Below are positions 696-40,206 of a stretch of DNA of 40,216 bases, piece by piece. The stretch is from a virus: positions 1-40,216 of IMG/VR virus record IMGVR_UViG_3300034190_002923; one strand, written 5' to 3'. The position numbers and the translations under genes were made by a program. The notes beneath the pieces were generated by a model. It did no database searches. It was given only the letters and a program-made list of their open reading frames with translations, and was not told the DNA's origin. Numbering within the stretch: position 1 is the stretch's first letter; every line of letters starts with the position of its first letter.

Positions 696-806
696 AAAAA
701 GTCCCTTGCCAGCTTTGTTCTTGTAGTACCTCACCACAAGTCTTATATCAAGGGGGACATTAGTCGCTGGGTTGCTCTGGTGTGGTAGCGATGCCACAAA
801 TAGAAT

Positions 807-877
807 CATACGTTCAGGGAATCGAACCCTGGGCCTTGGGTTTGGAAGCCAAGATGTTACCACTACACCAAACGTAA
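807..877 (-). tRNA. tRNA, probably Trp (anticodon CCA)
   Basis: A cloverleaf of 71 nt can be drawn. The acceptor stem has six of seven pairs (first pair T-T), the D stem is GTGT/ACAT with a GG-containing loop, and the anticodon loop is TTCCAAA, giving CCA in the canonical position. The T arm is CAGGG-TTCGATT-CCCTG and the discriminator is G. The stem 31:39 position is a C-C mismatch, and the CCA tail is not encoded. Gly (TCC) was considered because of the wording of the loop, but it breaks the anticodon stem, and G73 fits Trp. It begins directly after the 3' end of the next tRNA. Confidence 0.75.
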
Positions 878-948
878 AAGTACATATGGGATTCGAACCC
901 AAACCAGTCTCCTTATGGGGAGATGCTCTGCCACAGTGCTCATGTACT
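878..948 (-). tRNA. tRNA with CAT anticodon (Met/Ile2-type), shortened anticodon loop
   Basis: Acceptor stem AGTACAT/ATGTACT is perfect over 7 bp. The D stem is GCAC/GAGC with one A-A mismatch, and the T loop TTCGAAT is canonical. The anticodon stem TCTCC/GGAGA is perfect but encloses only six bases (CCATAA), so the loop lacks the usual invariant U before CAT. The 3' end abuts the next tRNA without a spacer, and CCA is not encoded. Function is uncertain because of the loop. Confidence 0.7.
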
Positions 949-1149: not shown

Positions 1150-1344
1150 TTAATTCTTCTTGAAGTAACCCTCAATATCTTTAATGCTGTCGAAGATGGG
1201 GTCATATAGTGCGCTAATGCCTGATTTGAAATGATCTTTATGTAGACTAATTGTTATGTCTATGTATTCAACATTACCTTCCTCGTCTAGGTCGAGCTCA
1301 GTCATTACTATAGAATCTCCGATTCCCCTATCGTTGTGTCTCAT
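1150..1344 (-). CDS. Hypothetical acidic protein (64 aa), first gene of the leftward unit
   Basis: Acidic protein with no recognised domain. GGAG lies 11 bases before the ATG, and an internal ATG at codon 14 has a GGAG at the same distance, so the start is not certain. It is the first gene leftward of the divergent control region and precedes the structured stretch and tRNAs. Function unknown. Confidence 0.55.
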   Translation of the reverse strand: MRHNDRGIGDSIVMTELDLDEEGNVEYIDITISLHKDHFKSGISALYDPIFDSIKDIEGYFKKN

Positions 1345-1357
1345 ATAACTATATACT

Positions 1358-1515
1358 CCGTATATATACTAAGTACTATCGTACTCTATTTATGTTATTC
1401 TTTATTATATTCTATTACTACTTATTAACTTAGGTACTGGTGACTAGGTACTCCGTACCCTATATACTAATCTTTGTTATAAAGTATATCCCATGAGATC
1501 GATGATTTCCGTGAA
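1358..1515 (+). repeat. Diverged inverted non-coding repeat, copy 1
   Basis: Homologous to 25911-26071 on the opposite strand. Three conserved blocks occur in the same order. Block 1 is 34 nt with 30 identities, all differences being transitions (1358-1391). Block 2 is the identical 17-mer TAAAGTATATCCCATGA (1480-1496). Block 3 is TCCGTGAA (1508-1515), exactly 11 nt after block 2 in both copies. The middle differs in sequence but keeps a short dyad in both. It lies upstream of the main early promoter. Candidate roles are operator array, replication origin or phage-specific promoter. Confidence 0.85.
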
Positions 1516-1625
1516 GAAAGTTAAAATAAATATAAATTCTTCGAATTAGGTGCTTATTTATAGGATCTTAATGGTGATATATACATGGATTAGTGTATAC
1601 TTGCGTATATTTATATATAAAGTGC

Positions 1626-1654
1626 TTGACAGATCCTTGTTTGTGGTATATAAT
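1626..1654 (+). promoter_or_regulatory. Consensus sigma70 promoter of the early unit
   Basis: TTGACA (1626-1631), 17-bp spacer, TATAAT (1649-1654): a perfect match to the consensus. Transcription would start near 1661 and give a leader of about 100 nt before the immunity gene. A TATAC-TTGC-GTATA dyad ends 17 bp upstream of the -35 box and could be an operator. Confidence 0.9.
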
Positions 1655-1761: not shown

Positions 1762-2109
1762 ATGGAAGGTTTAATCGCACTGACAATCATCATGATCATC
1801 TGGCTTATGCCTGTTATCGTAGCATCTAGAAATAACCACCCTAACACGGTGGTGATCACATTGCTAACATTGTTCCTAGGGTGGACATTTGTAGTGTGGG
1901 CTGGGTGTTTAGTGTGGTCTTTGGTCCCACCTAAGATCAACGCAAGTAGGCTAAGAGATGATCACCGATATTTGAAATCATCTAGAGCTAACAGAATCAG
2001 ACTGGATCAAGCTATCCGTCAGATGGACAAGGCTGCCGAGGTTGGGGATGTGGAAGCTATGGCACTTGCTCACGAGGATTATGAATACTACAAGAGTTTG
2101 GTAGGTTAG
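1762..2109 (+). CDS. Superinfection immunity (Imm-like) membrane protein
   Basis: 115 aa. Two hydrophobic segments (about residues 3-21 and 29-54) flank a short loop with the HPNT motif, followed by LGWT and VWAGCLVWSL. This pattern is typical of the superinfection-immunity protein family to which T4 Imm is related. Members sit in the inner membrane and block DNA entry of related phages. The C-terminal 55 residues are a charged helical tail beyond the core domain. GGAG precedes the ATG, and it is the first gene after the perfect early promoter, as expected for immediate exclusion. Family membership is confident; the target phages are unknown. Confidence 0.85.
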   Translation: MEGLIALTIIMIIWLMPVIVASRNNHPNTVVITLLTLFLGWTFVVWAGCLVWSLVPPKINASRLRDDHRYLKSSRANRIRLDQAIRQMDKAAEVGDVEAMALAHEDYEYYKSLVG

Positions 2110-4329: not shown

Positions 4330-4358
4330 TTGACAAAACCCCAAAAGTGCGGTATAAT
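4330..4358 (+). promoter_or_regulatory. Consensus sigma70 promoter
   Basis: TTGACA (4330-4335), 17-bp spacer, TATAAT (4353-4358), a full consensus match. Shortly downstream is the palindrome TAGGTACCTA (about 4381-4390), immediately before the next gene's GGGGG ribosome binding region. It starts a second early transcript at the 77-aa membrane protein and the AAA+ gene. Confidence 0.9.
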
Positions 4359-4401
4359 TAGGGTATAAGAGGAAGAAGAATAGGTACCTAGGGGGCCCAA
4401 A

Positions 4402-4635
4402 ATGAAGAGTCAAGGAAGAAACAAGTGTAAGAAGCATAGAAAGTACTCAACAAGAACAGGTACTGATAGGAATGCTGCCATGAGACTTGATACTATGGTA
4501 GGCGAGAGTACCGACCTTACTGAGAGAAGTGTAATCATTGCTAATGTAGTATTAGTACTATCTATGATTATCATCCCTGTTCTATTATTGGGATCTTTAA
4601 TTAAAACAGTAATAGATCTATATATGGGAGCCTAA
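4402..4635 (+). CDS. Small membrane protein with basic N-terminus (77 aa)
   Basis: A strongly basic first 30 residues precede one transmembrane helix (about residues 44-66). It is the first gene behind the promoter at 4330-4358. The start is preceded by GGGGG. The basic tail would face the cytoplasm by the positive-inside rule. No family recognised. Confidence 0.55.
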   Translation: MKSQGRNKCKKHRKYSTRTGTDRNAAMRLDTMVGESTDLTERSVIIANVVLVLSMIIIPVLLLGSLIKTVIDLYMGA

Positions 4636-12208: not shown

Positions 12209-12850
12209 ATGGTAGCTAAAATTAATCTACTAAGTGGGGAAGGTGGCCCTAAGATCGTAAACAAACCACTAACAGAGGGTGTGCAGGAGGCAAGAGTTGT
12301 TAGGATTATTCAGCTGGGCGTTCAGCCCGCTAATCCTAGGTTTACTGACTCTAAGCCTACGCCTCAAATGATGATCATGTTTGAGATGGCCGATGATGAG
12401 GTGGATATTAAGGGGGAACTAAAGCCTGCTATGGCATTTATGAGGGTTAATATTGTTGGCGGAGAGAAATCTAAGCTAACTAAGTTGGCTCTAGCTGCAA
12501 AACTGGATCCTGAGAACCTGGAGTTTAAAGACTTCCTAGGTAAGGCATTATCGTTAACCATTAAAAATAAGAAGAGTGGGGATAATGTTTATAGCAATAT
12601 TGCGGACTTTAGTGGTCTATCAGATAGGGCAGCCAGCACTGTGCCGGAAGTTGTAACTGATAGTTACTTCCTAGACTTTGATGATCCAGATCCTAAGGTT
12701 CTTGGTGAGCTAGGTAATGGGATGTTGAAACTTATTCAGAACGCTATTAATTACTCAGGTTCAGTAATCGAGAAAGTTCTTAAGCAGCTGGACGATAGCA
12801 AGCAGACTACTGAGATCACTGCAAAGGACCTAGACAATGACGTCATCTAA
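12209..12850 (+). CDS. Single-stranded DNA-binding protein-like (phage SSB family)
   Basis: 213 aa. The N-terminal pattern EGVQEARVVRIIQLGVQPAN, a beta-rich core with LAAKLDPENLEFKDFLGKALSLTI, and NIADFSGLS match a phage OB-fold SSB-like family that often sits between polymerase and 5'-3' exonuclease. The tail is acidic (DLDNDV), as in T7 gp2.5, where it contacts polymerase. AAGGAG precedes the ATG. It overlaps the exonuclease gene by 14 bp. Function is inferred from pattern and context. Confidence 0.75.
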   Translation: MVAKINLLSGEGGPKIVNKPLTEGVQEARVVRIIQLGVQPANPRFTDSKPTPQMMIMFEMADDEVDIKGELKPAMAFMRVNIVGGEKSKLTKLALAAKLDPENLEFKDFLGKALSLTIKNKKSGDNVYSNIADFSGLSDRAASTVPEVVTDSYFLDFDDPDPKVLGELGNGMLKLIQNAINYSGSVIEKVLKQLDDSKQTTEITAKDLDNDVI

Positions 12851-15084: not shown

Positions 15085-15512
15085 GGAAAAGATATTTTGG
15101 AAACAAGAAGGCGGATAGTAAGTGGGAAGGTAAACTAATGGAGGGGCTAATGGAGTCCTTCCAGCATCATAATAAAGAACATAACCTTAAATATAGTATC
15201 CCTAAGACGTATGAACCAGATTTTGTGCGAGAAGTACGTGCGCTATGTCAGGTTGATATGTGTAAAGTTAAGGTTTATGTCGAAGCTAAAGGAAGATTTC
15301 GCGATAGGGACGAAGCTAGAAAGTACAAATACATTCGAGATGCAATTGAACTAGAGGAGGATATATTTATTTTCCTTTTCTATAAGGCCGATACCCCTAT
15401 GCCTTTTGCTAAGAAGAGGAAGGACGGGACTAAGCTTACTCACGGGGAGTGGGCTACGTTAAATAATTTTGAGTGGTATGAGGAAGATAACTTCCCAGAG
15501 GATTTGAGATGA
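15081..15512 (+). CDS. T7 endonuclease I-like Holliday junction resolvase
   Basis: 143 aa. The order of residues fits the family: Glu16 in KWEGK, Asp47 in YEPDF, and Glu68-x-Lys70 in VEAKGRF, followed by a basic helix DRDEARKYKY. These form the PD-(D/E)xK site that resolves branched DNA before packaging and helps break down host DNA. The spacing between Asp47 and Glu68 is longer than in T7, suggesting an insertion. It overlaps the ClpP-like gene by four bases (ATGA). Confidence 0.88.
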   Translation: MRKRYFGNKKADSKWEGKLMEGLMESFQHHNKEHNLKYSIPKTYEPDFVREVRALCQVDMCKVKVYVEAKGRFRDRDEARKYKYIRDAIELEEDIFIFLFYKADTPMPFAKKRKDGTKLTHGEWATLNNFEWYEEDNFPEDLR

Positions 15513-15991
15513 ATATTATAACATTAAAGGTAGGTGATAAGGATATGTCTGAGAACAGTAAGGACCTTAAATCTTGGACTAGGTACATACAATACCTCTT
15601 GTGGAAAAGATTTGTAGGGGTCCCTAGAACGACACACGATGATATAGTACAAGAGGTTCTATTAGAGATCTACGACAAAGACTACGTAACCGCATCCTTC
15701 GTAAAGATGATGACTTTTAAACATGTTGATAGGTATTACCGTAATCCACGGAATGTGGCTACGATTGAATGTCCTGAGTACCTAGAAGATTTAAGGCAAG
15801 AAGCTCGGGACACAGCTAAGCTTGAGTTGGACAGTATAATGGACCAACTAAGTGCTGATGAGAATCTAATCCTAATAGCGATAATGAGCAATGAAACACT
15901 AAGAGATGCAGCTAAGTCTCTAGATATATCTGAGGATGCAATGTCCTACCGTCGAGATAAGCTGTACTGCAAGATCAGAGAAATGCGCTAG
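15509..15991 (+). CDS. Sigma-factor-like transcription regulator
   Basis: 160 aa. HDDIVQEVLLEIYD (43-56) resembles sigma region 2.1-2.2, the core-polymerase contact. The last 45 residues (LSADENLIL to IREM) have the shape of sigma region 4, with a helix-turn-helix around LRDAAKSLDISEDAMSYRR. Overall size is like ECF sigma factors. It is the last gene of the early unit and the phage has no RNA polymerase of its own, so redirecting host polymerase to late promoters is the obvious role. The start overlaps the previous stop (ATGA) with GAGG upstream; an internal ATG at codon 13 is less likely. Confidence 0.75.
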   Translation: MNIITLKVGDKDMSENSKDLKSWTRYIQYLLWKRFVGVPRTTHDDIVQEVLLEIYDKDYVTASFVKMMTFKHVDRYYRNPRNVATIECPEYLEDLRQEARDTAKLELDSIMDQLSADENLILIAIMSNETLRDAAKSLDISEDAMSYRRDKLYCKIREMR

Positions 15992-17392: not shown

Positions 17393-17484
17393 ATTTCCCC
17401 TTATATATTTACTTTACTTTTAATTCTAAGGCCCTTTAGAGGCTCTGTATTGGCTTAACTAGGTTAGCCCTATGGTTGTATACT

Positions 17485-17513
17485 CCCCTCACCACGTTAG
17501 ACGCTTAGAGGGG
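17485..17513 (-). terminator. Hairpin after the tail tip gene
   Basis: CCCCTC (17485-17490) and GAGGGG (17508-17513) form a six-pair stem with a 17-base loop, 10 bp beyond the stop of the tail tip gene. No T run follows, so it may slow or process the transcript rather than end it. The rest of the spacer (17393-17522) holds AAGCCAATACAG on the minus strand, a version of the motif shared with three other spacers. Confidence 0.5.
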
Positions 17514-17522
17514 CTTTAAATA

Positions 17523-24478: not shown

Positions 24479-24547
24479 TTTAAGCTCCCCTAATGGTTTA
24501 TTCTAATTGGTTGGTACCATATGTATGGGTACCGGCATATAAGCCAA

Positions 24548-24572
24548 CAGGGGCCCATTAAAGGGCCTCCTG
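24548..24572 (-). terminator. Strong hairpin after the tail tube gene
   Basis: CAGG plus GGCCC pairs with GGGCC plus CCTG across an ATTAAA loop, with one bulged T: nine pairs. It starts 15 bp after the tube protein stop. No T run follows. It may act as a partial terminator or protect the abundant tube mRNA. The spacer also carries ATAAGCCAACAG (24539-24550) and a GGTACC-containing inverted repeat at about 24512-24532. Confidence 0.6.
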
Positions 24573-24586
24573 AGGCAATATAACTA

Positions 24587-25887: not shown

Positions 25888-25910
25888 TAATCTTCCTTAT
25901 TTAATTTATT

Positions 25911-26071
25911 TTCACGGACTTTGTCCTTTTCATGGGATATACTTTAAAAAACACCTAACATAAGTGATACGTAAGTATCCCGTGACCGTAAGTCATAACA
26001 CCAATCACAATAAAAGAATAACAATAATAAGTTAATCAAATAGAATACGGTAGTATTTAGTATACATACGG
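25911..26071 (-). repeat. Diverged inverted non-coding repeat, copy 2
   Basis: Fills most of the 188-bp spacer 25888-26075. In minus-strand order it has block 1 (26071-26038, 30 of 34 identical to 1358-1391), a middle part with a GATAC/GTATC dyad (25966-25979), the 17-mer TAAAGTATATCCCATGA (25946-25930), and TCCGTGAA (25918-25911). Within block 1 the dyad is AATAC-TACC-GTATT, while copy 1 has AGTAC-TATC-GTACT: both arms changed together. It interrupts otherwise tightly packed head-tail genes. No open frame of note lies inside. Confidence 0.85.
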
Positions 26072-26075
26072 TGTC

Positions 26076-28296: not shown

Positions 28297-31053
28297 TTAC
28301 CCCACTTTCTTAATATATAAGGTACAGTCGTCTAAACTCATATCCTTACCAATATCCCTAACTTGTATCTTAACTGTATCACTAGCTGCGAACTCATGGA
28401 GTACTGTGTTGAATATCCCTCCAGTATCTTGAGTTACATTACGCGCAACGTAGTTGATTATCTCACTACCTGCAACAGCTGTTGATGTATTCTTAATTAA
28501 TTTAGCTTCTAACTGCACTCTGTTCTGAGTAGCTGTTACAGAACCCTGTACCTTGAAGCTTATCTCGTACCACCCAGCTGAAGCTATGGTTACAACTCCT
28601 GTAGTGGTGTTAAATGTATACCCTGTGTCTGACTTAGTAGCCGCTACCCAAGTAGTCAGGTCAGCGTATGTGCCTGTGGTTCCCTGAGCTGTAGTCTTAG
28701 TAGCAAAGAATAGAGGTATGGTTGCCTGTATCCCAGCTTCTGTAAGTGTTTGATTCTCCCATACCGATCCAGTATACTGTAGTACTTCATCATTAGCCAC
28801 TGTAGTAATGGTTACATCACTTAAATCTGGCAATGCAGTAGCTCCTCCACCGCCTCCACCTCCAGCTGCCCACTTAACTCCAGAAGCTTCAGCACTATCA
28901 GCCGTTAGAACGTGTGTATCAGTCCCTACCGCGAGATCAATCCAATCAGTGCCGTTATGTACCAGCACGTCTCCTTTAGTGCCTGTAATGGCCGCTATAG
29001 CGTCTAGATCGTCATCCTGTGCCTGTATACCTGCTGTAGCTAATGATCTGAACTCATATCTTGTGAATGTACTGTTATACATCATTAGATTGTTATTACT
29101 AGGTGTTCCAAAGACATCAGTAATGTCAGTCAAGTTGGCAATAGCGTTCAATGCAGCTAATGATCCAGAGTCAGTTACGTCTGATAGAGTGTGAGTATGT
29201 CCCGTGGCAGCAATACCTGCCTCAGCAAGAGTCTGATTCTCCCACACTGTACCAGTATATTGTAGTATTTCATCGTTAGCAACAGTAGTAATAGTCACAT
29301 CTGACAGGTCTGGTAGGGCTGTAGCGCCTGATCCTCCACCTGCAGCAGCAGCCCACTTGAGGCCAGAAGCCTCTGCAGCATCCGCGGTTAGTACATGATC
29401 ATCAGTTCCAGCTGCTAAATCTACCCATGTTGACCCGTTATGTACGAATATGTCTCCTTTGTTGCCAGTTATAGCGCCTAGGGCACTTAAATCAGCATCA
29501 TATGCCTGAACATCACTACCTATAGCTAATCCAAGGTTAGTCCTTGCCCCAGACGCTGTAGAAGCTCCTGTACCGCCATTTAAGACCGCAAGGTCAGTAC
29601 CACTCCAATTAGAGTTGTTTATGCTGCTGAGAGCCGCTAAAGTACCACTATCAGTGATATCTGACAGAGTATGTGTATGTCCGGTCTCAGATATACCTGC
29701 TCCAGCTAGTGTTGCTATATTCCATCTAGTGAAAGTAGCGTCGTATTGTAGTATAGTTCCAGTGGAGGGAGTGCCGAATACATCGGCTATGTCAGCTATC
29801 TGAGCTATTTCATTCAATCCTGCTAAGGTTCCAGCATCCGATAAGTCTGTAACACTTACGGTCCCGAGATCAAGTGATGGGTTACCTGCGACACCATCCC
29901 CGTTACTAACAGAAAGCTTACTACTGCCAGCAGTGATAGTGCGATTACTATACGTAGCAGCAGCCGTGCGGACCATAAGGCCATTCGTTGAGAAGTCCCC
30001 ATCCATAACCGCCCCGGAGGCGGCGACATTCGTAGAATCTGTAACATCTGCGCTAGTTTCAATTCCATCTAATTTTGTCCCATCAGTTGCGATGTCTCTA
30101 CCATCTACGGTACCAGTGACACCTACGTTTCCGGTTACGGTCAGTGCTCCCGTAGCAACTGTACCAGTTGTACTGAATGCAACTATAGCTGCAGTCCAGT
30201 CGATATGTTCGTTAGCCACGAAGTTAGTCAGTGAGTCATGGTCAATAGCTGCTTGGTGTTGTGTTACATTGGATTGAGCTATACGAGCATCAGCCATTGT
30301 ACCACTAGTAATGTCAGTAGTTGCATGTATATGTGACGTGTCAGCTTTACCAGCTAAGAACGTTGTAATTTGTGCCTGAGTATATTTATCCAGGTCTGTT
30401 ATATCTGCTTCTAAGTGAGTATGTGTAGCAGCAGCTAAGCCGGCTTCCGATGCGGTCTGATTAATCCACTTAGAGCTAGTGGTATCGTATGCTAGTAATT
30501 CATTATCTCCAACGCTAGTAATAGTAACGTCACTAAGATCAGGTAAAGCTGTAGATCCACTGCCACCTCCTACAGATACACCGCTTGCGCCAGGTGCTCC
30601 TTTAATGTTTCCCATTACCCACCAGACTCTATCTTGCTTCTGGTAGATGTTCATTGATTCTATATCTAGGTATACGTCACCCTTGGATCCAGATGCATCA
30701 CTAGGTGTTCCAGCATTAACTAACCATAGCCCCTTCTCACCTTTCTCACCTTTAGGTCCTTGATCACCTTGCTCACCTCGGTACCCTTGCTTACCTTGGA
30801 ATCCTTGGGGACCCATAGATCCCTTCATCCCTCTCTCACCTTGTATACCTCTAGCGCCCTGTATGCCCTGCTCTCCCTTCACTCCACGTTCACCACGATT
30901 ACCTTGTGGTCCCGTAGGTCCAGAGTATACGGCCATGAATTCCTTACATAGCTCTAGGACATAAGCCTTAGACGCTATATCGCTTGATACAAGCACCTTC
31001 TCAGTTGCTTTACCATTCTTTATTTCATATACTTTATACTTATCTTTTGCCAT
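28297..31053 (-). CDS. Collagen-like fibre protein with C1q/TNF-like C-terminal domain
   Basis: 918 aa. An N-terminal 43-residue segment precedes about 21 Gly-X-Y triplets (residues about 45-108). Then come repeated beta units: three copies around ALPDLSDVTITTV, two around GDIFVHNGSTWVDLA with HVLTADAAEASG, and linkers of poly-Gly. The last 140 residues (ATIPLFFATKT onward) have the alternating beta pattern of a trimeric jelly roll. The gene sits among head genes, between decoration protein and connector, so it may be a head fibre rather than a tail fibre. GAGGA precedes the ATG. Confidence 0.85.
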   Translation of the reverse strand: MAKDKYKVYEIKNGKATEKVLVSSDIASKAYVLELCKEFMAVYSGPTGPQGNRGERGVKGEQGIQGARGIQGERGMKGSMGPQGFQGKQGYRGEQGDQGPKGEKGEKGLWLVNAGTPSDASGSKGDVYLDIESMNIYQKQDRVWWVMGNIKGAPGASGVSVGGGSGSTALPDLSDVTITSVGDNELLAYDTTSSKWINQTASEAGLAAATHTHLEADITDLDKYTQAQITTFLAGKADTSHIHATTDITSGTMADARIAQSNVTQHQAAIDHDSLTNFVANEHIDWTAAIVAFSTTGTVATGALTVTGNVGVTGTVDGRDIATDGTKLDGIETSADVTDSTNVAASGAVMDGDFSTNGLMVRTAAATYSNRTITAGSSKLSVSNGDGVAGNPSLDLGTVSVTDLSDAGTLAGLNEIAQIADIADVFGTPSTGTILQYDATFTRWNIATLAGAGISETGHTHTLSDITDSGTLAALSSINNSNWSGTDLAVLNGGTGASTASGARTNLGLAIGSDVQAYDADLSALGAITGNKGDIFVHNGSTWVDLAAGTDDHVLTADAAEASGLKWAAAAGGGSGATALPDLSDVTITTVANDEILQYTGTVWENQTLAEAGIAATGHTHTLSDVTDSGSLAALNAIANLTDITDVFGTPSNNNLMMYNSTFTRYEFRSLATAGIQAQDDDLDAIAAITGTKGDVLVHNGTDWIDLAVGTDTHVLTADSAEASGVKWAAGGGGGGGATALPDLSDVTITTVANDEVLQYTGSVWENQTLTEAGIQATIPLFFATKTTAQGTTGTYADLTTWVAATKSDTGYTFNTTTGVVTIASAGWYEISFKVQGSVTATQNRVQLEAKLIKNTSTAVAGSEIINYVARNVTQDTGGIFNTVLHEFAASDTVKIQVRDIGKDMSLDDCTLYIKKVG

Positions 31054-31155
31054 TATTTCCTCGTAGTAACCCTATTAGCCCTTATAAGGCGTTCTATTGA
31101 AGTCTCTATGTGAGGCAGTACCTAAATACTACCCCAAGGTAGAAAGCTCAATACA

Positions 31156-31170
31156 GGCCTGTTAAAGGCC
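31156..31170 (-). terminator. Short GC hairpin after the decoration gene
   Basis: GGCCT-GTTAA-AGGCC, 25 bp downstream of the decoration-protein stop. No T run. It is preceded on the plus strand by AGCTCAATACAG, related to the spacer motif AAGCCAACAG, and lies near CTAAATACTACC (31122-31133), a 12-mer also found in block 1 of the non-coding repeat. The whole spacer 31054-31194 holds no gene. Confidence 0.5.
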
Positions 31171-31194
31171 CTTCTCGATCATTCTTTACCACGA

Positions 31195-38278: not shown

Positions 38279-38903
38279 AGTATTGCTCCAGTAGTGTGTT
38301 TAAGTAGATGGAGGGAATAAAGCGTATAGTTCTTGATACTATCCCAATTACCTGGCCACCTTCATTGAATACCGGGCTCCCACTATCACCACCTGTCGAC
38401 GTAAGTGTTCCACTAACGAAGAATAGGTCTAAATTGGCTTTCTCCGAGCTTAGCTTATAGTGATATCCATAAATACCTCGGTCTACATTATACCAATCGT
38501 ACGATCCATGCCCGATAGAGAAGACTGGTAGGTCCGGTGCCTGCCTAATAGTATTCATCTGCAGTGGAGATCTCTTACTAGTTACCTTGATAATAGCTAG
38601 ATCTCGTAGCACATCAAAGGCCACTACCTGTCCATCACCAATAGATCCATCATAATGAACAACACTTAGCTTCTGTCCAGACTGATCTTCATAGTTACCG
38701 AATGCAACGTGAGCATTAGTAGCCACTAGATTGTCTGAAATGTAGAACCCTGTACCGTGACCGGTGCCCGTCTGTACGATAACAATGCTCTCGTTAAGAC
38801 TTGTGTAGGTCGATACTTCCTTACCTGCGTTGATATCACCCATATTAAATGTAAATGCGGTAGATACCGCTAGAATAGCTCCCACAAAGATTGATTTAAT
38901 CAT
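38199..38903 (-). CDS. Secreted trypsin-like serine protease
   Basis: 234 aa. A signal peptide (about residues 1-17, AVSTA before the likely cut) is followed by a trypsin fold with TNAHV (His65), RDLAIIKV (Asp101) and TGGDSGSPV (Ser174), a complete catalytic triad. No PDZ domain follows. It would be exported to the periplasm or beyond. It is in the late unit, after the DUF115 gene and holin-like gene and before terminase. A part in envelope disruption at lysis, virion maturation or defence against host proteins is possible; none is proven. Confidence 0.85.
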   Translation of the reverse strand: MIKSIFVGAILAVSTAFTFNMGDINAGKEVSTYTSLNESIVIVQTGTGHGTGFYISDNLVATNAHVAFGNYEDQSGQKLSVVHYDGSIGDGQVVAFDVLRDLAIIKVTSKRSPLQMNTIRQAPDLPVFSIGHGSYDWYNVDRGIYGYHYKLSSEKANLDLFFVSGTLTSTGGDSGSPVFNEGGQVIGIVSRTIRFIPSIYLNTLLEQYYAEPTRFLIPSQQASETTIHSDDRSS

Positions 38904-40206
38904 TCTTATCCCCTTTATTGTTTATAGCCTGTTGCACCCACTCGATGCAGTTATATGCCAATGCTTCTAACAGATCCTCGTTGTACGAGTACGTCCAGAC
39001 CTCTCTGAACTGTTGAACATAGTCATATGTCTTTAAATAACTCTGATACGACCCTAACTTCATTGCATCTGGATGCCTAACCCCTAGATGGAGGATATTC
39101 ACCATATCTCGTGCTAATGATAGTAGGTTCTCCTCTATCTTCCCTTGGTATTCTTTCAGCTGTATAGGTAGTTTGTAGATGATTGGGTCTATTTTAGCAG
39201 CGTATCTGCTTAATTCAGCCTCTTTAGTACCCTCTATTAGTAGTCCTTTGCTTGCGTTGAAGCATGTCATCCCTGTGTCTTTAAGTGTATCTGATATGAA
39301 TAAGGCTTCCCTTTTCCATAGATGTCTTGTAATTATACCTGATTCGAGCTCTAATGGCCCTTGTTCATCAGTATCTTCTGTTCTGCCATCAGCATACTGC
39401 ACTAATGAGTCATTGGAGTCCTTTCTATAGCTCAGATCAACTCCTACCATTGTAAGCTCTTTAAAGCCCATATAAGCCGCCCAATGGTGAATGGCAGTAC
39501 TTACACCCGATGCACCCTCTTTAATCGATTCTAGGCCGTCTATGACGTTCCTAGGCTGCATACAGTTACAACCACCAGCTACATATATAGGACCTTCCCA
39601 CTTGTTAAAGCATCTAGTCTCTAGAATAAGGGTAGTTAGTAGTGGTATATCTCTAGTCCAGTTGGAGGGGATATGTTCAAACACTCTCTCCCACTCGAAG
39701 TCATATGGATCGAATGCTAGACAGTAGTGAGGCTTGATGCCTTCCTTAGCTAGGATCCTGATAGCTGATCCACCTGCTATTACTATAGCTGTCTCATCCT
39801 TAATGATCCTTCTCAGTTCATCAAAATTATCAGAGAGGCTAGGACCTGCGCCACAGTACACTAATGGTCTATCGTGAGCTACTCCCTTAAGAGACTCTAC
39901 TGTGTAGACCTGTGACTTAGAAGTCATGGCGTTGTGTATGTAGTTCCGTATGCCTTCTGGTTCTGACTTACTATAAAACCCCCAAGTAGACTGTCTGTCC
40001 AACCTGAGGGCTATCTCATTAAGAAGTTCTTTATCTTCGCAATCTATGTCGAATGCTACACTAAGTCCAGCGAAGGGTACTGTTATATAGTCCAGGTTAG
40101 TTATGCTAAATCCCTGGATACTATATAGGGGAGTATCAACTGTAAGAGTCCCATCTTCATTCTTCGTTATCTTTAAACGTATTGGTTTTCTCTTTACTCT
40201 GCCCAC
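38896..40206 (-). CDS. DUF115 (MptE/Maf-like) protein
   Basis: 436 aa, GTG start with GGGGGAG upstream and an in-frame stop directly before it. Conserved pieces: YCGAGPSL (117-124), IAGGSA (143-148), FDPYD (165-169) and MVGVDLSY in the C-terminal half. This is the Rossmann-like core of the DUF115 family, which includes archaeal 6-hydroxymethylpterin diphosphokinase MptE and flagellin-modifying Maf proteins. Its role in phages is unknown; modification of a surface or virion sugar is one guess. Its stop overlaps the secreted protease start by eight bases, so the two are co-translated. Confidence 0.8.
   Translation of the reverse strand: MGRVKRKPIRLKITKNEDGTLTVDTPLYSIQGFSITNLDYITVPFAGLSVAFDIDCEDKELLNEIALRLDRQSTWGFYSKSEPEGIRNYIHNAMTSKSQVYTVESLKGVAHDRPLVYCGAGPSLSDNFDELRRIIKDETAIVIAGGSAIRILAKEGIKPHYCLAFDPYDFEWERVFEHIPSNWTRDIPLLTTLILETRCFNKWEGPIYVAGGCNCMQPRNVIDGLESIKEGASGVSTAIHHWAAYMGFKELTMVGVDLSYRKDSNDSLVQYADGRTEDTDEQGPLELESGIITRHLWKREALFISDTLKDTGMTCFNASKGLLIEGTKEAELSRYAAKIDPIIYKLPIQLKEYQGKIEENLLSLARDMVNILHLGVRHPDAMKLGSYQSYLKTYDYVQQFREVWTYSYNEDLLEALAYNCIEWVQQAINNKGDKND

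Follow-up and report, generated by a model that had tools for sequence, protein, structure and literature searches.

A duplicated intergenic element with clustered minihairpins, a possible DNA-structure module upstream of early and late genes of a phage

The genome analyzed here carries an intergenic element in two opposite copies, each oriented towards its downstream genes, whose short dyads read on one strand as DNA minihairpins of loop type C(GNA)G or C(GNNA)G. Judged from the sequence, an element that works as a module at the level of the DNA is well supported. As for its role, we tentatively favor, with rather less than even confidence, a duplicated cis-acting DNA-structure module that opens the DNA upstream of two transcription units and serves transcription. 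Control of transcription is more likely than a function as paired replication origins.

RESULTS

The window covers positions 1 to 40,216 of IMG/VR record IMGVR_UViG_3300034190_002923, which is probably a circular assembly because it carries a 77-bp terminal repeat. Early genes run rightward from 1762 and late genes leftward, and a divergent gap (1345 to 1761) separates the early operon from the leftward genes, which start at 1344. One copy of the element lies in this gap, upstream of the early promoter, and the other among the head-tail genes, in agreement with the initial annotation (Table 1).

Table 1. Positions of the element, its parts and nearby features in the window
Feature	Position	Strand	Basis
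Copy 1 of the element, within the divergent gap (417 bp)	~1355..1530	+	alignment with copy 2
Copy 2 of the element, occupying the space between the genes for head closure (26405-26076) and neck/tail completion (25887-25468)	~25897..26075	-	alignment
Block 1 of copy 1, CCGTATRTATACTAARTACTAYCGTAYTCTATTT	1358..1391	+	30/34 vs 26071-26038 of copy 2
3' block of copy 1, TAAAGTATATCCCATGA-N11-TCCGTGAA	1480..1515	+	alignment
3' block of copy 2, TAAAGTATATCCCATGA-N11-TCCGTGAA	25911..25946	-	alignment
Easily melted, T-rich stretch separating the two dyads of copy 1	1386..1446	+	23% G+C vs 42% for the genome
Minihairpin GAATC-GGA-GATTC, unrelated stem, just outside copy 1 and inside a small leftward ORF (1344-1150)	1313..1325	-	scan
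Minihairpin TATATAC-GGA-GTATATA, left edge of copy 1, absent from copy 2	1350..1366	-	scan
Minihairpin AGTAC-GATA-GTACT, dyad 1 of copy 1	1372..1385	-	scan
Minihairpin GGTAC-GGA-GTACC, dyad 2 of copy 1	1447..1459	-	scan
Minihairpin AATTC-GAA-GAATT, unrelated stem, just downstream of copy 1	1535..1547	-	scan
Minihairpin TATAC-GCAA-GTATA, the last of four RTACTNNCGTAY dyads in the early gap, upstream of the -35 box at 1626	1596..1609	-	scan
Minihairpin AATAC-GGTA-GTATT, dyad 1 of copy 2	26044..26057	+	scan
Minihairpin GATAC-GTAA-GTATC, dyad 2 of copy 2	25966..25979	+	scan
Early sigma-70 promoter, consensus TTGACA-N17-TATAAT, downstream of copy 1	1626..1654	+	motif match
phrog_862 / NGO0469-family protein, possible trans-acting partner	12209..12850	+	family match
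ECF-sigma-like protein, possible trans-acting partner	15509..15991	+	family matches

Searched against the rest of the genome, copy 1 matches copy 2 best (69% identity over query positions 6 to 176, about 175 bp; E = 1.0e-6), and the Smith-Waterman score of the pair, 73, compares with a maximum of 41 from 200 shuffled queries. The initial annotation had described two opposite copies that share three blocks, and this was borne out: block 1 agrees at 30 of 34 positions, TAAAGTATATCCCATGA at 17/17 and TCCGTGAA at 8/8, the last two separated by exactly 11 nt in either copy. The 160-bp element it delimited (1358-1515 and 26071-25911) is real and slightly longer (Table 1). As it had also stated, all four differences in block 1 are transitions. 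Within the genome, there is no third copy of block 1 at three or fewer mismatches and no further copy of the 3' block above chance, and no recombinase that might serve site-specific inversion was recognized in the proteins scanned. The sequence past copy 1 (1515-1547) resembles the first codons of the gene past copy 2 (25881-25860; AAAGTTAAAATAAATATAAA versus AAAAGTAGAATAAATATAAA), a likeness that is possibly a remnant of the duplication.

The element was not found outside this genome by blastn in phages or by searches with element patterns in IMG/VR and GTDB genomes, which returned nothing or chance matches; the matches inspected lay in unrelated, coding-like or annotated-frame sequence. Searches guided by the terminase and capsid led to distant phages only (about 46% at best), none with the element, and a primase-guided search found no relatives. 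Members of the Zobellviridae (PA11, O4, Ty and T2S2-k141_370465) have a similar replication module and a divergent early/late layout. In T2S2-k141_370465, GTACTCCGTAC occurs in the divergent gap and ATACTTACGTAT in one of the late gaps; the divergent gap of PA11 contains two C(GNNA)G hairpins, both of which are also present in Ty and one in the stretch of O4 that was read. However, the Zobellviridae compared have neither the 175-bp element nor a cluster of more than two hairpins, and SIO1 has no such hairpin; we treat these hairpins, which are near the chance level, as leads.

Each copy contains two dyads of the form RTACT-N(1-2)-CGTAY, 75 and 78 bp apart, and two further such dyads adjoin copy 1. 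Genome-wide, the motif occurs 7 times against 0.68 expected, with six of the seven occurrences inside the two gaps. Dyad 1 reads AGTAC/GTACT in one copy and AATAC/GTATT in the other. The pairing is thus kept, as the initial annotation had noted, but the two changes it counted as two compensatory differences make up one compensatory pair; a kept stem with a double change arose by chance in about 1.8% of simulations. Dyad 2, about 75 bp downstream of dyad 1, covaries too (GGTAC-TCC-GTACC versus GATAC-TTAC-GTATC), and its center lies 30.5 to 31 bp before GTATATCCC in both copies. Because no close relative was found, the covariation is that between the two copies, with no independent instance.

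On the opposite strand, all six gap dyads become DNA minihairpins whose loop is C(GNA)G or C(GNNA)G, a class known to be extra stable (PMC4686876). This prompted a genome scan for loops of this class closed by any perfect stem of 5 bp or more. The scan found 11 minihairpins in the window (1.46 expected): six on the minus strand between 1313 and 1609, two on the plus strand in copy 2, and three scattered. More than two on the minus strand of 1300-1620 were seen in none of 20,000 local shuffles, and the two in the gap of copy 2 were reached in 1 of 20,000; in 1.44 Mb of control phage DNA, one strand held at most two per 320 bp. GNA/GNNA loops make up 8 of 11 within the two gaps and 3 of 103 elsewhere (Fisher P = 4.6e-8, or 0.0018 with the RTAC family counted as one event). 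The loop class was recognized after four dyads had been seen, so that only the two hairpins with unrelated stems and the N4 control below are truly out of sample.

Four of the eight gap hairpins have a GNA loop and four a GNNA loop. Since two of the eight have unrelated stems, it is loop and pairing that recur rather than sequence. The strand that bears the hairpins is, for copy 1 and copy 2 alike, the one from which the downstream genes are transcribed. The proposal of the initial annotation, a functional dyad or hairpin with pairing conserved rather than sequence, is hence supported and extended to eight strand-oriented minihairpins of the same class, far above chance. The eight stems are A+T-rich, whereas those of the minihairpins examined in vitro contain two or more G-C pairs (PMC4686876), a point against the favored reading.

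Of all 100-bp and all 150-bp segments of the genome, that of copy 1 is the least stable; among 60-bp segments, the copies take second and fourth place. The single-strand DNA folding energy of both regions is no better than that of shuffled sequences. With energy thus unremarkable overall, it is the loop class, the clustering and the strand that carry the argument.

All four perfect matches of the genome to TTGACA-N17-TATAAT lie on the plus strand. The early operon is thus already served by a consensus sigma-70 promoter, and no sigma-70-like one was found just downstream in copy 2; both observations count against a transcriptional role of the element. The leaders after the early promoters at 4330 and 1626 (4330-4401 and 1655-1761) contain many CCTAGG/GGCC palindromes (ACCTAGGGGGCCC and GGACCTAGGCCC).

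The N4-like phages, with their dedicated giant polymerase, are the main group in which extruded DNA hairpins are well established as entry sites for regulation. In the first 20 kb of N4, the same scan gave only three matches (90-102, 557-573 and 4546-4562), located just upstream of gp1, gp2 and gp15, the expected places of the three mapped vRNAP promoters; the remaining 50 kb gave three scattered ones. The hairpins described here resemble P1 to P3 of N4 (Schitoviridae), which have 5- to 7-bp stems and a C(GNA)G loop on the template strand upstream of early-region genes. In N4, the C-G closing pair and the G and A of the loop are needed for extrusion of the hairpin, which lies on the template strand (PMC4496689); all eight hairpins here have a G..A loop closed by C-G on the template strand. 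In contrast to N4, the loop has three bases in only four of the eight, the other half being GNNA, and the contact base -8G beside the closing C (PMC4496689) is replaced by A or T in all eight. The hairpins are also clustered here (six in 300 bp), one set lies in the late region, and two flanking blocks are conserved. No relative of the vRNAP gp50 was found in this genome; an RNA polymerase family search of the genome was silent, as were its controls. The missing -8G, the four-base loops in half of the hairpins and the failure to find a vRNAP together led us to reject an identity with N4 promoters.

DISCUSSION

What could a duplicated, easily melted element with template-strand hairpins do for the phage? 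In each copy, the two short dyads are embedded in T-rich DNA that melts unusually easily, and about 30 bp separate the second of them from the invariant 3' block. We hypothesize that negative supercoiling would cause the dyads to extrude as minihairpins, the stable loops of which, C(GNA)G or C(GNNA)G, would then be exposed on the strand that serves as template for the genes that follow. Extrusion may then open or mark the DNA, so that an RNA polymerase complex could initiate or be regulated there, with the early operon as the presumed target of copy 1 and the neck/tail genes as that of copy 2. Which protein would read the hairpins? The ECF-sigma-like protein has weak but consistent family matches (TIGR02937, E = 5e-4, and PRK12512, E = 1e-5, neither reaching its curated cutoff; phrog_1740, E = 0.0044), and it is possible that the copies are promoters for this protein, one of the roles offered by the initial annotation. 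A simple late promoter is ill-suited, since one copy points into early and the other into late genes. Structure predictions for the two candidate partner proteins (mean pLDDT of 40 and 36) were too poor for use.

A bolder version, which we consider doubtful, is that a phage lacking a virion RNA polymerase relies on clusters of N4-class minihairpins, extruded by supercoiling, as entry sites for another machine, the module being duplicated between its early and late regions. The machine might be host RNA polymerase with the phage ECF-like sigma factor, or a T7-like replisome lacking its own RNA polymerase. If true, the presence of such a cluster in a phage without the dedicated polymerase would point to a wider use of DNA-hairpin recognition, and it could bear on the start of replication or on gene switching in T7-like replication modules that lack an RNA polymerase.

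The two copies could instead be, as the initial annotation also suggested, paired origins comparable to oriL and oriR of SPP1, with initiator-bound repeats beside an AT-rich unwinding element in an early and a late copy. SPP1 has two similarly organized origins of this kind, about 13 kb apart, with oriR within the late region (PMC6316719). The layout here is alike in having two similar copies, one in the late region, and both combine repeated dyads with some of the least stable DNA of the genome; copy 2 is located where no promoter is expected, and a protein of a family annotated as phage replication initiation is encoded (NF046043, E = 3e-19, just below the cutoff). However, this NGO0469 "initiation" label is based on weak similarity, and the replication module is T7-like (primase-helicase and PolA) and not of the SPP1 type. 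Among the families recognized in the proteins scanned there was no initiator (gp38) or loader (gp39) of the SPP1 type, and a T7-like primase-helicase was seen in place of the DnaB-type gp40. The repeats here are hairpin dyads and, unlike those of SPP1, do not lie inside an initiator gene. GC skew tracks gene direction only, and origins would leave the additional hairpins beside the early promoter unexplained. We consider paired origins unlikely.

Somewhat weaker is the case for an ordinary operator array, another option of the initial annotation, in which RTACTNNCGTAY would be bound by a dimeric regulator of the phage that governs the early/late switch in the divergent gap and once more within the late operon. 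The enrichment of the dyad motif agrees with it, as do the four sites that surround the divergent promoters, of which the last immediately precedes the early -35 box, and compensatory changes would preserve the symmetry of an operator as well as the pairing of a hairpin. On the other hand, the dyad center is asymmetric (always T..C), every site is oriented alike with respect to the element, the spacer varies from 3 to 4 bp, and the two hairpins of the same class with unrelated stems are not accounted for.

A structured RNA (5' leader or antiterminator-like) transcribed from each copy is very improbable and was rejected as the leading reading: RNAalifold gives a consensus on the two sequences with nine double-changed pairs, and a closing helix RUAUACU/AGUAUAU is possible in both copies, but Rfam at the gathering threshold matched only two tRNAs across the window, a relaxed search, around copy 1 only, gave chance-level matches, the folding energy resembles that of shuffles (z of 0.38 and -1.17), and copy 1 lies upstream, not downstream, of the consensus early promoter.

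Several further features of the record were observed. The product of the first early gene (1762-2109, plus strand) is superinfection-immunity-like (PF14373, E = 5e-14). Among the late genes, 38896-40206 (minus strand) encodes an MptE-like domain protein (PF01973, E = 2e-28). To our knowledge, such a protein is unusual for a phage. At 806-948 (minus strand), a tRNA-Trp is directly followed by a degenerate tRNA whose anticodon was unreadable by ARAGORN. The late intergenic gaps at 17393-17522, 24479-24586 and 31054-31194 contain G+C-rich inverted repeats such as GGGCCTTTAACAGGCC, and the tail-fiber-like gene at 28297-31053 holds two direct repeats of 296 nt each, 70% alike, at 28730-29508.
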